Of a stretch of 20,210 bases of DNA, positions 11,595 to 20,210 are shown piece by piece. Positions within the stretch are counted from its first letter, which is position 1; each line of letters starts with the position of its first letter. Source of the DNA: a virus; IMG/VR virus record IMGVR_UViG_3300028925_000179, positions 1-20,210 of that record. One strand, 5' to 3'. Both the position numbers and the translations under genes were made by a program. Under the pieces are notes generated by a model. The model was not told the origin of the DNA. It saw nothing but the letters and a program-made list of their open reading frames with translations, and did not search any database.

Positions 11595-12461
11595 ATGGCT
11601 TTACAAATTATTACAGCCGATCAACGTATGGCAGAGACTAAAGGCCATAAGATCGTAGTGTGTGGTCAAAGTGGTGTAGGTAAAACTACACTAGCTCGCA
11701 CACTAAACCCAGACAGAACTTTGTTTATGGATTTAGAGGCTGGTGACGCGGCTATTGAAGGACATCCTATTGATGTAGTTCGACCTAGAACATGGGCAGA
11801 ATGTCGTGACTTAGCTTGCTTCTTAGGTGGACCAAATCCATCACTAGCAGAAGACCAGCCGTATAGTGAGTCTCACTACAACTATGTCGAGTCTATGTAT
11901 GGTGACGGATCACAAGACGTGTGGAACAAATATGACACACTTTTTGTTGACTCAATAACTGTAGCAGGTCGATTGTGCTTCCAATGGTGCTTACAGCAAC
12001 CAGAAGTACGTTCTGATCGCTCTGGCAAGTTAGATACTCGTGCAGCTTATGGCTTACATGGTCGTGAAATGATGTCGTGGCTAACCCACATACAGCATAT
12101 TCGATCAAAAAATGTAATATTCGTTGGTATACTTGACGAGATTACAGACGAATATGGAAGAAAACAGTATGCCCTTCAAATAGAAGGTAGCAAAACTGGT
12201 AGAGAATTGCCCGGAATTGTAGACGAAGTAATCACAATGTCAATCTTGACAGGTGATCATGGACAGTACCGAGCATTCGTGTGTCAACCTTTGAATGAAT
12301 GGGGCTACCCAGCTAAAGATCGTTCTGGTAGACTTGATACACTTGAAGAACCACACTTAGGTAAGCTCATTGAGAAAATGAGCAGTGGTGGTCCAAAAAC
12401 AGACAAAGAATTAACCTTTGTCGATCCTGCAACACAAATCTCTAGCGAAGGAGAAGCATAA
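11595..12461 (+). CDS. RecA-like AAA ATPase, Sak4-type recombinase candidate (AAA_24)
   Basis: A 288-aa protein with Walker A GQSGVGKT (24-31) and Walker B TLFVDSI (115-121, Asp119). A conserved stretch with HGREMMSWLTHIQHI then KNVIFVGILDE follows, as in the phage AAA_24 family. Sak4 proteins are short RecA-fold single-strand annealing or exchange ATPases that work with a partner SSB, and the following gene looks like that partner. Length, motif order and the missing RecA C-terminal domain fit Sak4 rather than RecA. There is no clear Shine-Dalgarno; translation probably restarts from the gene ending 1 nt earlier. The next gene starts on its last stop base. ATPase is firm; recombinase function is family inference. 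Confidence 0.82.
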   Translation: MALQIITADQRMAETKGHKIVVCGQSGVGKTTLARTLNPDRTLFMDLEAGDAAIEGHPIDVVRPRTWAECRDLACFLGGPNPSLAEDQPYSESHYNYVESMYGDGSQDVWNKYDTLFVDSITVAGRLCFQWCLQQPEVRSDRSGKLDTRAAYGLHGREMMSWLTHIQHIRSKNVIFVGILDEITDEYGRKQYALQIEGSKTGRELPGIVDEVITMSILTGDHGQYRAFVCQPLNEWGYPAKDRSGRLDTLEEPHLGKLIEKMSSGGPKTDKELTFVDPATQISSEGEA

Positions 12462-13075
12462 TGCTTAATCTAAATAACGTCCCACAAGACGAAAACCCAC
12501 AAAATCAAGAATTTACATTAATTCCAAAAGGAACTGTAGTTCGTGCTGTAGTCTTAGTTCAGGCTGGTGACATTGAAGTCCCTGAGTTTGGTCAAGGCCA
12601 ATGGTTTAAGAAATCAGCAAGTACGTCTGCAAAGTGGATGAACCTTGAATTTACTATTATTGGTGGTGATTTTGATCGTCGCAAGTTCTGGCACAGCATC
12701 TTTGTAGATGGTGATAAGCTAGGAGCAAGCGGTATGCCTCTTGCAAAAGAAATCGGTCTTCGTACATTGAAGTCAATCGTAGAAAGCGCACGAAGCATTT
12801 TACCTACTGACATGTCACCGCAAGCACAACAAAATCGTAATATCTCTGGCATGTTCGACTTGAACGCATTAGAGATTTGTGCGAAAATTGGTGTAAAGAA
12901 AGGCACTAATGGCTATCCAGATAGCAATCAGCTAATGGTGGCACTAACGCCTGAAAACAGCGAATTTTTTACCCAAGGGAATATACCGGCACAACAAACA
13001 CAACCGGTTAATCAGACTGCACAACAAACGGCTCCACAGCCAACTGGTGCAGTTCCTGCATGGGCGCAAAGTTAA
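12461..13075 (+). CDS. Single-strand DNA-binding-like protein paired with the Sak4-type ATPase
   Basis: A 204-aa protein. The N-terminal part (about 15-110) is beta-rich, with LIPKGTVVRAVV and SAKWMNLEFTIIGGDFDRRKFW, a pattern like DUF669/OB-fold phage proteins encoded beside Sak4 ATPases. The middle is helical, with a GVKKG motif at about 145-150. The tail (from about 173) is Gln/Thr/Pro-rich and ends VPAWAQS, resembling the flexible tail of SSB but without the acidic tip. AAGGAG at 12448-12453 and the TAATG overlap with the ATPase support co-translation. The role is inferred: coating single strands for the ATPase and the helicase. The unusual G/C-rich segment 13076-13155 follows directly. 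Confidence 0.68.
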   Translation: MLNLNNVPQDENPQNQEFTLIPKGTVVRAVVLVQAGDIEVPEFGQGQWFKKSASTSAKWMNLEFTIIGGDFDRRKFWHSIFVDGDKLGASGMPLAKEIGLRTLKSIVESARSILPTDMSPQAQQNRNISGMFDLNALEICAKIGVKKGTNGYPDSNQLMVALTPENSEFFTQGNIPAQQTQPVNQTAQQTAPQPTGAVPAWAQS

Positions 13076-13155
13076 TCTAGCGGCAAGGCCAATCTGCGCC
13101 TGCTAGAACACGGACAGGGGGGCCGTGAGCCGCTAACCCCCCAACTATTCTAGCA
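13076..13155 (+). ncRNA. Candidate structured RNA with interlocking pseudoknots, upstream of the helicase
   Basis: The 93-nt gap before the helicase is much richer in G and C than its surroundings and holds five complementary pairings. Arm 1, TAGCGGC 13078-13084, pairs with GCCGCTA 13129-13135. Arm 2, TGCTAGAA 13101-13108, pairs with TTCTAGCA 13148-13155. Hairpin CACGG 13109-13113 pairs with CCGTG 13123-13127. The G6 run 13117-13122 in that hairpin loop matches C6 at 13137-13142. As an alternative, TCTAGCGGC 13076-13084 pairs with GCC-T-GCTAGA 13098-13107. The first two cross each other, giving a nested double pseudoknot, and the fifth competes with both. The 3' arm ends 13 nt before the helicase ATG, close to its weak AGG site (13159-13161). 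A regulatory leader, processed RNA or ribozyme-like fold are all possible. I do not recognise a known class. Confidence 0.6.
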
Positions 13156-13168
13156 AATAGGTTTTATT

Positions 13169-14854
13169 ATGATATTACGTCCTTACCAAGAGGTAGCCGT
13201 TTCTGACGCGTGTAACGCATTAGATAAGCACGGAAATACCCTTGTCGTTGCTCCTACAGGAGCTGGCAAAACAATTATGCTTTCAGCTCTAGTTGGTCAA
13301 CGCCACAATAAGGGCAAAAGAATTCTAGTCATGCAACATCGTGACGAGCTTGTTAGGCAGAACAAGCAAAAGTTTGAGAAGGTTAATCCTTACATCACGA
13401 CAAGCATTGTCAATGGTACAATAAAGCACTGGGATGGCGAAGCTGTGTTCTCAATGGTTCAAACAATGTCGAGGAATAAAAACCTTAGAGATCGTCCTTT
13501 ATTTGATATGATTGTTATTGACGAAGCACATCATGCGGCGGCTGACACTTATCGCAAGGTTATTGACGCGGTTCTTGAAGATAACGACAAAGCAGAGATC
13601 GTAGGATTTACAGCAACGCCAAATCGTGGCGATGGTAAAGCTTTGCGGTCTGTATTTAATAACTGCTCTCACCAAATTGAATTAGCTACTTTAATCCGTG
13701 AAGGCTTTTTAGTTCGTCCTAAATCATTCGTGATTGATCTTGGAGTAGGCGAACAACTTGAAAACGTTACTAAGCGTGGCAAAGAATATGACATGGAAGA
13801 GGTTGCGGCGATCATGGATCGTCAGGTTATTAATGATCGTATCGTACAAGAGTGGAAAGAGAAGGCAGGAGATCGCAAGACCGTTGTGTTTTGTTCTACA
13901 GTTTTACACGCTGAACACGTATGCGAAGCTTTCCTAAACGCTGGAATTAAGGCAAATTTCGTAATTGGAGAAACACCAAAAGACGAACGAGCCGCGATGC
14001 TGCACGATCTTGAGTTTGGTGACACGCAGGTAATTGTGAATGTTATGGTGCTGACAGAAGGATTTGATGCTCCGCCTGTGTCCTGTATCATTCTAACTAG
14101 ACCATGCTCACAAAAAGGCACAATGGTGCAGATGATTGGGCGTGGTTTGCGCATTCTTGATCCTGAGTTATACCCAAATACGATTAAGACCGATTGCGTT
14201 GTCATGGACTTTGGCACATCTATACTTACTCATGGAGCTTTAGATGAAACTGCAAACCTAGATGGAAGACCCAAAGACCCGGACGCCGAAGCGCCAACAA
14301 AAAAATGTCCAGAATGTGATAGCGAAGTTCCTTTAAATATTCGCGTATGTCCAATCTGTGAATATGAGTTCCAAAATAAAATCAAAGAAGAATTAGATAG
14401 CTTCGTTATGACTGAGTATGACCTGATGCAGATGTCTCCGTTTATGTGGATTGATGCGTTTGGAAATGGAAACGCTATGATGGCTATGGGCTTCAGTGGG
14501 TTTACTTTGGTAGGTAATATCGGAGAATACTGGATAGCCATCGTCAAGGCTCAGAATGGGCGTCCTAGAGTGGTTTCTATCGGTGATAAAGTACAAGCTA
14601 TGGCAGCAGGTGATGATTTTCTCCGTGAGATTGAAGATAGCAACGCGGCTAACAAAAGTAAGCGTTGGTTAAATCAAGCGGCTACTGACAAGCAAAAGGA
14701 TCATTTGCGTAGAAACGGCGTACAAATTAGCGCGATTGATTTCTCTTGGACTAAGTATAAGGCAGGATGTTGTTTGAGCTACTATTGGAATAAACAAAAG
14801 ATTGATAAGATAATTTTCGAAAGAATAAAGCTGATGGAGATACAAGATGAATAG
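13169..14854 (+). CDS. SF2 DEAD/DEAH-box helicase with zinc ribbon
   Basis: A 561-aa helicase that would unwind DNA using ATP. Motifs in order: RPYQ (4-7), Walker A APTGAGKT (28-35), DEAH (118-121), TATP (147-150), a second RecA lobe with VFCST and LTEGFDAP, and motif VI QMIGRGLR (321-328). A four-cysteine zinc ribbon follows (C380, C383, C394, C397). The C-terminal region (about 405-561) includes RWLNQAATDKQKDHLRRNG, a segment I have seen at the end of related phage helicases, perhaps for DNA binding. The start has only a weak AGG at 13159-13161, behind the structured gap. The stop overlaps the next gene by 8 nt. Helicase assignment is firm; involvement in replication rather than recombination is inferred from neighbours. 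Confidence 0.93.
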   Translation: MILRPYQEVAVSDACNALDKHGNTLVVAPTGAGKTIMLSALVGQRHNKGKRILVMQHRDELVRQNKQKFEKVNPYITTSIVNGTIKHWDGEAVFSMVQTMSRNKNLRDRPLFDMIVIDEAHHAAADTYRKVIDAVLEDNDKAEIVGFTATPNRGDGKALRSVFNNCSHQIELATLIREGFLVRPKSFVIDLGVGEQLENVTKRGKEYDMEEVAAIMDRQVINDRIVQEWKEKAGDRKTVVFCSTVLHAEHVCEAFLNAGIKANFVIGETPKDERAAMLHDLEFGDTQVIVNVMVLTEGFDAPPVSCIILTRPCSQKGTMVQMIGRGLRILDPELYPNTIKTDCVVMDFGTSILTHGALDETANLDGRPKDPDAEAPTKKCPECDSEVPLNIRVCPICEYEFQNKIKEELDSFVMTEYDLMQMSPFMWIDAFGNGNAMMAMGFSGFTLVGNIGEYWIAIVKAQNGRPRVVSIGDKVQAMAAGDDFLREIEDSNAANKSKRWLNQAATDKQKDHLRRNGVQISAIDFSWTKYKAGCCLSYYWNKQKIDKIIFERIKLMEIQDE

Positions 14855-18604: not shown

Positions 18605-18925
18605 ATGAACCAGAATAAAATAGAGCGATACCAAGACATTTATCGGGAACTTTGGGAGGCGCAAGTCAAAAAAGATCGTAATGATAACCCAAGATTAAAT
18701 ACAATATCTCCTAATTATAAGAAACGAAAACCTTATATATCTATATTGAAATTAGATAAAACACCAATCCCATATCGTTATCGCGTGTTGTCAAAGCAAG
18801 CGGAAACAATCAACATGTTGTTGCTCCGGGGCTTCGGGGTTAAAGATATTTCTCCAATCATACATACGTCAGAGAAAGCTATTCGAATAATTAAAGATCG
18901 TTACAATTTGCCAAGAAAAAATTAA
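18605..18925 (+). CDS. Small helix-turn-helix protein at the end of the early block
   Basis: A 106-aa basic protein. I chose ATG 18605 because AAGGA at 18591-18595 precedes it by 9 nt; longer starts would run into the primase-helicase gene without a ribosome site. Residues 1-45 are highly charged. Residues about 65-100 (QAETINMLLLRGFGVKDISP, then SEKAIRIIKDRYNL) form a helix-turn-helix of the kind found in sigma region 4, LuxR-type and terminase small subunit proteins. It ends the plus-strand early block, and its stop overlaps the convergent minus-strand gene by 4 nt (TTAA). Likely roles are transcription regulation or recognition of packaging DNA; the sequence does not separate these. Confidence 0.75.
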   Translation: MNQNKIERYQDIYRELWEAQVKKDRNDNPRLNTISPNYKKRKPYISILKLDKTPIPYRYRVLSKQAETINMLLLRGFGVKDISPIIHTSEKAIRIIKDRYNLPRKN

Positions 18926-20210
18926 CGATTAAATCCGCCATAACCTGAGAAATTGTTCGAGTTATTTCCGTACTGCTGCGGTTGATACGGGTTTGACATC
19001 GGGGCGAAACCACCTTGACCACCATAACCTTGATTCATTCCGTAGCCTCCAAATTGTTGTGGCTGCGGACTGGGCTGTTGATATGGACTTTGTTGGTATC
19101 CACCGCCTTGCATCCCGTATTGTTGATAAGGAGTTTGCTGCGGCTGCATACCATAACCTTGCTGCATGTATGGATTTTGTTGCTGCTGCTGACCATAACC
19201 TGAAAAATTGTTCGAGTTATTGTATGGCTGCTGCCCATAATTTTGCTGCGGACGGGGCTGCATACCACCATATCCACCATATCCACCATATCCACCATAT
19301 CCACCATAATTTTGCTGCGGTCTTCCGTATCCACCCTGCATTCCACCCTGCATTCCTCCGTAAAAATTCTGCTGCGGGCGCTGCATACCGCCGTAACCCG
19401 AATAATTCATTGGCTGCGGGCGCTGCATCATCTGAGGAAACTGAGGTCTGCCGAATCCACCCATAATACCTTGCGGTCTTTGCGGAGGTCTTTGAGGAAA
19501 TCCACCAAACATTCCCATGCCTGTAGGTCTTTGACCACCAATACCCATACCCATGTTCGGGTTACGATACTGCTCATTCGCTTGGTATGTTTGATTTGCA
19601 CCATAGCTACCTATTAAATTTCTTTGAACTTGCGTTAATCCACCCATAAAATCATCAAAAGAAGATTGATTAAACTTAGGTTTAGAATTAAAATTAGGGT
19701 TTCTTGGATTGAGAATATTACCTCCCGAAGTCATCATTTCTGCAACTAGGCCAGTGGTTGGGTCTATTTCAGGTTGAGGTTGCGAAGCCATAGAATTTTT
19801 ACGTTCATCTCTAAATTGTTCAAAAGTTTGATTTTCTGTCGGTAAAACAACACGACCCATAAATCCGTTGGCTCTTTGATCTGCGGCTTCTTTCTTTAGT
19901 CTGTCATATTCGCTTCTTATCGGATCAGAAGCCCCAGATAAATTATTCATAGGGTCTATATTAAAACCACCTCTAGGAATAACGCCATCAGGTAAAAGAC
20001 TAGGTTTTGGTCCTTTTCTTCTTGGATCGTTTACAAAAAAACCATCTGAAAGTTTACGATCATTTGGACCTTGCGACATACTTCCGTAACCATCATTTCC
20101 TAAACCAGTAAATTCTTTAAACTTATCTTCGAAGGCTTGACCAGCTTCCGACAATGGCATTGAGCCTGCCCGCGCATCAAAGAATGAATTGATTGTTGGG
20201 AGATTGTTAT
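18922..20210 (-). CDS. Protein with Gly/Gln/Tyr/Pro-rich prion-like tail, 5' end outside window
   Basis: The minus-strand frame has an ATG at 20160 (412 aa) with only a weak GGGCAGG upstream. It stays open to the window edge and reads protein-like (NNLPTINSFFDARAGS), so the true start is probably further upstream. Residues 1-200, counted from that ATG, are polar and Asn/Pro/Gly-containing with some helices. Residues about 203-412 consist almost only of G, Q, Y, P, N, M, F, S, with no Asp, Glu, Lys, His, Cys, Trp, Leu or Val. Arg is almost always followed by Pro. YGG, MQGG and NNSNNFSGYG motifs repeat. I do not recognise the family. A tail, fibre or capsid-associated protein with a disordered end is plausible from context. 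The stop overlaps the HTH gene by 4 nt. Confidence 0.75.
   Translation of the reverse strand, partial: NNLPTINSFFDARAGSMPLSEAGQAFEDKFKEFTGLGNDGYGSMSQGPNDRKLSDGFFVNDPRRKGPKPSLLPDGVIPRGGFNIDPMNNLSGASDPIRSEYDRLKKEAADQRANGFMGRVVLPTENQTFEQFRDERKNSMASQPQPEIDPTTGLVAEMMTSGGNILNPRNPNFNSKPKFNQSSFDDFMGGLTQVQRNLIGSYGANQTYQANEQYRNPNMGMGIGGQRPTGMGMFGGFPQRPPQRPQGIMGGFGRPQFPQMMQRPQPMNYSGYGGMQRPQQNFYGGMQGGMQGGYGRPQQNYGGYGGYGGYGGYGGMQPRPQQNYGQQPYNNSNNFSGYGQQQQQNPYMQQGYGMQPQQTPYQQYGMQGGGYQQSPYQQPSPQPQQFGGYGMNQGYGGQGGFAPMSNPYQPQQYGNNSNNFSGYGGFNR
18938..19221. repeat. Pair of 29-bp direct repeats inside the low-complexity gene
   Basis: The segments 18938-18966 and 19193-19221 are identical except for one base. 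They encode the NNSNNFSGYG motif at the very end of the protein and 85 residues before it. Identity at wobble positions points to recent duplication or gene conversion rather than only protein-level selection. Confidence 0.85.
19265..19309. repeat. Tandem 9-bp repeat, five copies
   Basis: The unit CCACCATAT is repeated five times (the last copy differs at its final base) and encodes consecutive YGG units on the minus strand. Near-perfect identity suggests slippage-driven expansion, so copy number may vary between related phages. Confidence 0.9.
19331..19354. repeat. Tandem 12-bp repeat, two copies
   Basis: CCACCCTGCATT occurs twice in direct succession and encodes MQGG units on the minus strand, close to the 9-bp array. 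A third, degraded copy may follow. Confidence 0.8.

Follow-up and report, generated by a model that had tools for sequence, protein, structure and literature searches.

Locus and gene context

The window, meaning the whole stretch of DNA analysed here, comprises 20,210 nt of the IMG/VR virus record IMGVR_UViG_3300028925_000179 (positions 1 to 20,210). At the locus of interest, a gene for an SSB-like protein, whose 5' neighbour is a Sak4-like annealase gene, is separated by a short gap from a ResIII/DEAD helicase gene (Table 1). The SSB-like protein as modelled by AlphaFold (mean pLDDT 84) has its best PDB fold match in the OB-fold ssDNA-binding protein PrgE (E=1.7e-4), with RPA next, which makes 'SSB-like' a fair name; profile hits to triosephosphate isomerase were judged spurious. 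Elsewhere in the window, the minus strand carries a 412-residue ORF (18922-20160) that is very rich in Gly, Gln, Tyr and Pro, with repeats like QPQQNYGGYGG, and for which PHROGs returned no match.

The gap holds an RNA of ~67 nt that belongs to a new family of structured, cis-acting RNAs. It is encoded by the sense strand of an operon for phage recombination/replication, where it follows the SSB-like gene directly. The initial annotation had described strong G/C content in an A/T-leaning genome, and indeed the element has 67% GC against a window mean of 41%; the gap stretch is the GC maximum of the window, and only 2 of 4029 67-nt windows reach 65% GC. A reading as a Rho-independent terminator was dropped because the sense strand has no terminator-like site (GC hairpin followed by a T run) in 12900-13300.

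Table 1. Features of the locus, of the structured RNA and of related loci that carry the element within a gene.
Feature	Position	Strand	Remarks
SSB-like gene	12461..13075	+	phrog_2300; OB-fold ssDNA-binding protein (putative), Pro/Gln-rich linker, conserved PSWA tip
ResIII/DEAD helicase gene	13169..14854	+	3' of the element
Structured RNA core	13076..13142	+	family covariance model R1 matches 13076-13143, 86.6 bits
Helix A, 5' strand TCTAGC	13076..13081	+	directly 3' of the SSB stop codon; 6/6 pairs double-changed, 94.7% of cells paired
P1, 5' strand core GGC	13082..13084	+	bulge between A and B; core 96.9% paired; window extension 13078-13084
Hairpin B, 5' strand AGGC	13086..13089	+	relatives: AGGC/GCCT, GGGT/ACCC, CAGGT/ACCTG, AGAC/GTCT
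Hairpin B, 3' strand GCCT	13098..13101	+	same variant pairs in relatives as 5' strand
Helix A, 3' strand GCTAGA	13102..13107	+	also 5' arm of the initially annotated P2
P3, 5' strand CACGG	13109..13113	+	stem 1 of H-type pseudoknot; 5/5 pairs double-changed
K, 5' strand GGGGGG	13117..13122	+	pseudoknot stem 2; 6/6 pairs double-changed; abuts P3 3' strand
P3, 3' strand CCGTG	13123..13127	+	covariation
P1, 3' strand core GCC	13129..13131	+	extends to 13135 in the window
K, 3' strand CCCCCC	13137..13142	+	covariation
3' CTAGC copy (TCTAGC)	13149..13154	+	alternative partner of 13102-13107 (annotated P2); just 5' of Shine-Dalgarno-like AGG, 13159-13161
7-bp arm TAGCGGC/GCCGCTA	13078-13084/13129-13135	+	exact
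8-bp arm TGCTAGAA/TTCTAGCA	13101-13108/13148-13155	+	exact; annotated P2
5-bp arm CACGG/CCGTG	13109-13113/13123-13127	+	exact
6-bp arm GGGGGG/CCCCCC	13117-13122/13137-13142	+	exact
Winged-helix-like genes carrying the element	L398:2146-2496, L505:2157-2498, L397:1982-2500, L405:2076-2504

Fold of the element and covariation

The initial annotation listed four perfect complementary arms in the gap, and all four are exact (Table 1). None of 5000 dinucleotide shuffles of the gap reproduced the arm lengths (7, 8, 5 and 6 bp) in the same order, and 19 contained arms of 5 bp each; the single-sequence fold is unremarkable (z = -0.49) by a method that cannot form pseudoknots. Two helices had been missed: hairpin B, which lies in J1/2, and helix A, which is conserved throughout the family and competes with the annotated 8-bp P2. 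Helix A and hairpin B form a stem-loop with a GGC bulge on its 5' side. P3 and K make up an H-type pseudoknot, and a GCC in its third loop pairs with this bulge as P1.

Relatives of the locus were collected through protein searches with the helicase and the SSB, and through RNA patterns that are independent of the proteins. Covariation was counted on a sequence-only alignment (A4) of 34 divergent members. The compensatory changes that the initial annotation had proposed to look for are abundant, with 22 of 24 base pairs changed on both sides. Standard pairs fill 91.1% of all cells, compared with 38.7-54.6% when the partners are slid by 1-3 columns, and none of 500 shuffles reached any of five measures. 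The conservation of the element rests on structure, not on sequence, which agrees with the initial proposal of a structured RNA that has nested or crossing pseudoknots and is selected for its fold. Helix A alone contains 36 double-changed cells and occurs, for example, as CTAGC/GCTAG, GTAGC/GCTAC, CCAAC/GTTGG, GCAAC/GTTGC, GCAAG/CTTGC, TTGGC/GTCAA or TGTGA/TCACA. P3 varies likewise (for example CACGG/CCGTG, CTCGC/GCGAG, CAAGG/CCTTG, CTCTG/CAGAG, CACCG/CGGTG), as does K (GGGGGG/CCCCCC, GGGGGAG/CTCCCCC, GGGTAGC/GCTACCC, GGGTAGT/ACTACCC, GAGGGAG/CTCCCTC), which was counted on A4 because its columns are off by one in many rows of the model-fitted alignment A6.

On the sense strand, helices A and P3 together contain 15 G-U cells and no A-C cells, a count taken from these two helices only, hairpin B being misaligned and left out, and from a structure-fitted alignment, so that it leans somewhat toward the structure. 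G-U pairs in the absence of A-C pairs point to a sense-strand RNA that runs in the direction of the operon and not to duplex DNA or the opposite strand. This bears on the view that the element acts as DNA, for example as a replication or recombination signal folding as single-stranded DNA, with the RNA incidental. Such a role would suit a recombination/replication operon, the neighbouring SSB gene and the single copy per phage record; given the tolerance of G-U cells, an orientation fixed with transcription and a position locked to the end of a gene, we consider it very unlikely.

Among 22 clade representatives, P1 and a few A residues are nearly the only invariant positions, and the conserved unpaired bases are mainly the A after GGC and A residues before the 3' strand of K. 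So few conserved unpaired bases disfavour an aptamer or a catalytic centre and favour a mechanical or protein-bound knot.

Helix A and an alternative pairing

The 8-bp P2 of the initial annotation is restricted to members with a CTAG-like middle strand. As it does not covary and members with a changed middle strand are without it, we rejected it as a family-wide helix; in those members the partner of the middle strand is the 5' side, with which that strand covaries as helix A. Helix A is thus the helix of the family. The 7-bp P1 of that annotation has also had to be shortened to 3-5 bp family-wide: three pairs form the core, the fourth and fifth are kept in most members and covary, and the sixth is unpaired in 54 of 76, so a fixed 7-bp helix was rejected.

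The 3' CTAG copy is nevertheless frequent where the middle strand is of the CTA type (79 of 94 members, against 14.6 expected from shuffled tails), whereas members with a changed middle strand carry it at chance level (2 of 8, 1.6 expected). Of 21 non-redundant tails, 16 contain CTAG (1.5 expected), although all these ratios overstate independence, the members being related by descent. The copy is missing in about a dozen divergent lineages. It is a clade-specific addition that seems to be under selection, to which covariation adds no proof.

A second fold is open to CTAG-type members, that of the window among them. The fourth and fifth pairs of P1 use bases that helix A needs, so the two states, helix A with a short P1 and a long P1 with P2, are mutually exclusive. 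Helix stacks in the window, loops ignored, amount to -20.5 kcal/mol for long P1 with P2 and -9.3 kcal/mol for A with short P1, and an exchange between A and P2 may occur there. It could be that such an exchange serves a ligand-sensing riboswitch, in which the CTAG strands would switch between A and P2 and thereby open or close the next ribosome-binding site. The exclusive pairings, the stacking preference for long P1 with P2 and a conserved 3' CTAG copy near the ribosome-binding site speak for such a device. We nonetheless regard it as improbable, in view of a conserved unpaired core limited to a few A residues, the absence of the 3' copy from the divergent lineages, and a downstream gene that is not fixed, with the element inside an ORF in one clade.

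Distribution and evolution

The same element is present in several hundred IMG/VR loci, some contigs being counted more than once, and is abundant in a large set of uncultured aquatic phages. A covariance model built from the 34-member alignment recovers all 76 test loci, and 18 of 20 phage records of 20-58 kb contain one strong copy each. The record G005, which holds L280, has a second model match (32058-32128, plus strand; 15.8 bits, E=0.04) that is probably due to chance. The associated helicases range down to about 60% identity with that of the window, so the element has diverged strongly while keeping its fold. We found no isolate phage with a close helicase (best 37%), and the records of Pseudomonas phage MR5 and a Parageobacillus phage are without the element. 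BLAST of the element against phage records yielded only short chance matches within coding genes, for example in these two phages, that of the second-clade element yielded none, and a search against plasmids gave a single 25-nt chance match.

Gene context is strict on one side only. Among pattern-found copies with enough flanking sequence, the SSB gene is upstream in every case (102 of 102 and 77 of 77, 179 in total), and the helicase gene downstream in 90 of 90 and 65 of 65, either directly or after one inserted gene. The gene that follows the element may be the helicase, a PDDEXK_14 nuclease (Pfam PF24579) or another insertion, and such insertions between element and helicase affect about one sixth to one third of contigs. 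The element is therefore coupled to the SSB, not to any particular downstream gene. The position just after it is apparently a hot spot for insertions: in the main clade, about one contig in six has a PDDEXK_14 endonuclease gene there (L006:2576-2995, L331:2081-2497 and others), and other small inserts at the same spot are HNH-like (L342) or zinc-ribbon-like (L343, L385, L393).

In most CTAG-type members helix A begins 0-2 nt after the SSB stop codon. That codon was TAA or TAG and never TGA in the 108 distinct SSB ends first tabulated; a few TGA stops appeared in later loci (L496, L497, L498, L510).

In temperate relatives, from Alpha- and Betaproteobacteria among others, the two genes of the same SSB-helicase pair almost touch and the element is absent; some viral relatives lack it too. 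It is therefore a lineage-specific addition at the junction, and a dispensable one. The SSB-like/helicase pair is widespread in proteobacterial contigs (L416-L470), which share the PSWAQ C-terminal tip and are without the element.

The element within a reading frame

One clade (L397-L400, L402, L405, L409 and several of L496-L510) carries the element inside a gene, in the 5' portion of an ORF that encodes a small winged-helix-like protein and has an ATG of its own overlapping the end of the SSB gene. The K strands are here read as codons, AAG GGG GGC ... AAG CCC CCC in L398 and AAG GGG GAC ... AAG TCC CCC in L505, and nonsynonymous changes on both strands (GGC/GCC to GAC/GTC) keep K paired. 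That pairing is kept through amino-acid changes on both strands indicates selection on nucleic-acid structure in this clade, and the element shows that an RNA fold can persist within coding sequence. Its location inside an ORF, with no ribosome-binding site adjoining, argues against any role that requires one. A stimulator of frameshifting or readthrough was rejected, as the frames after the SSB stop close at differing places in close relatives; in this clade the downstream ORF has the start codon of its own described above. The same kind of winged-helix-like gene is found without the element in L407, L408 and L415. In L505 an apparent partial duplication of the N-terminal coding region (2157-2290) lies just 5' of the element and shifts it about 60 nt further from the SSB stop.

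Proposed function

While the fold, its conservation and its context are demonstrated, any mechanism has to be inferred from them. The element probably acts in the control of the operon mRNA. Our leading suggestion, tentative as it is, is that the element is a cis-acting boundary or stability element for the SSB message. A rigid knot would mark a boundary in the polycistronic mRNA, most likely by stopping exonucleases, and the SSB message might in this way be separated from the distal helicase message and be the more stable of the two. We rank this role first because the SSB end is constant while the downstream gene and its ribosome-binding site vary, and because few unpaired bases are conserved. 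In CTAG-type members, the exchange between A and P2 may link the knot to ribosomes finishing the SSB, since helix A starts so close to the stop codon. Yet a hairpin alone would be enough to stop an exonuclease, and the conserved P1 and knotted fold suggest something more specific. It also speaks against a boundary role that ribosomes of the downstream gene would unfold the knot in the reading-frame clade, and that the element is dispensable.

A second, rather unlikely explanation draws on analogy with T4. The phage's own OB-fold ssDNA-binding protein, when free, might nucleate on the knot and spread over the A/U-rich ribosome-binding site; as single-stranded DNA runs out, the next gene would then be shut off, in the manner of T4 gp32 at the gene 32 pseudoknot. 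The strict neighbourhood with the SSB gene and the OB-fold model of the SSB-like protein are in keeping with such a translational operator. In T4 and RB69, too, an H-type pseudoknot in a phage SSB neighbourhood is followed by an unstructured A/U-rich ribosome-binding region, and in some phages of that kind a nuclease gene (segG) is inserted beside the knot or overlaps it (PMC535899, PMC3014915), comparable to the nuclease insertions beside the present element. However, the T4 knot is a single one of ~28 nt upstream of the SSB gene, whereas here two interlocked knots (~67 nt) are located downstream of the SSB gene and not in its leader, which means that control would not be autogenous; the reading-frame clade lacks the ribosome-binding site, and element-free relatives retain the same SSB. 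The present element is also much more conserved than the T4 knot, and its binding by the SSB is putative. A boundary or stability role for the SSB message remains our preferred reading.

Comparison with known RNAs

Covariance models of the 4227 families in Rfam 15 gave no match to the element at the gathering threshold or at E<=10, in line with the initial view of a new or very divergent RNA. It is not described in Rfam 15 or in the accessible literature searched, a partial set from which subscription papers were missing. Covariation has proven interlocked pseudoknots in only a few families of small RNAs, and still fewer of these come from phages and have a fixed gene context; a 2010 review held the T4-type gene 32 pseudoknot to be perhaps still the only viral one in translational autoregulation (PMC3014915). 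With an alignment, a covariance model and an SSB-like neighbour at hand, control by SSB-RNA binding, an mRNA boundary and knot switching can all be tested directly.

The closest structural likeness is to HDV-like ribozymes. In these, the strands follow one another in a circle as P2b, P1a, P2a, P3a, P1.1a, P3b, P1b and P1.1b. The strands of the element, namely the 5' strand of A, P1a, the 3' strand of A, P3a, the 5' strand of K, P3b, P1b and the 3' strand of K, give the same order when read in a circle. The HDV order proposed in the initial annotation is not supported as it was put, depending as it did on an 8-bp P2 that is neither family-wide nor covarying; it does hold as a cyclic order, and the family has the topology of a circularly permuted HDV fold to which one hairpin is added. 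Crossing P1 and P2 helices and a P3 loop paired to the strand after P1 are shared with HDV-like RNAs, including the theta ribozymes of phages. Unlike them, the element has its P2b equivalent at the 5' end throughout the family, a P1 core of 3 bp instead of ~7 bp, a loop helix of 6-7 bp and an extra hairpin in J1/2, and it sometimes lies inside an ORF.

The initial annotation was right that hallmarks of the HDV class are missing, such as the fixed catalytic C in J4/2; the GGC core of P1 does start with G. A P2 strand at the 3' end is available in CTAG-type members only, where it does not covary, and no Rfam ribozyme model matched even at E<=10. Between K and the 3' CTAG runs a linker (aact, accaat, cacttt, tttcatca, ctctttt and others) that varies in length and sequence and has no C at a fixed position before P2; this C is essential in phage HDV-like ribozymes, reportedly with no rescue mutation (PMC10879173). 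We therefore did not file the element as an HDV-like ribozyme, on the grounds of P2b position, J4/2 C, P1 length and Rfam match. Self-cleavage by an HDV-like or permuted HDV-like ribozyme, cutting the polycistronic message between SSB and helicase, would have in its favour the cyclic strand order, the HDV order itself that CTAG-type members could adopt, and the occurrence of theta ribozymes in phages (PMC10879173). Against these stand the features just listed, an opposite polarity of K (G in the loop) and the location inside an ORF in one clade, and we think such activity highly improbable. A bolder idea, and a long shot, is that a natural circularly permuted HDV-type double pseudoknot exchanges with the HDV order in CTAG-type phages, driven by the ribosome ending SSB translation; such an RNA switch would read translation termination and decide what becomes of the downstream message, and it might contain a new catalytic site.

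In terms of the preferred boundary role, the element can also be compared with the xrRNAs known from RNA viruses. Both are compact knots with few conserved unpaired residues and a proposed mechanical stop, the resistance of the element being presumed; in contrast, the strand order differs, and xrRNAs have no sequence or Rfam match to it. Finally, like the candidate structured RNA motifs of bacterial and viral metagenomes, the element was found by covariation next to genes. It differs from these in its absence from the 4227 Rfam families and in the unusual strength of its covariation, which includes the pseudoknots.
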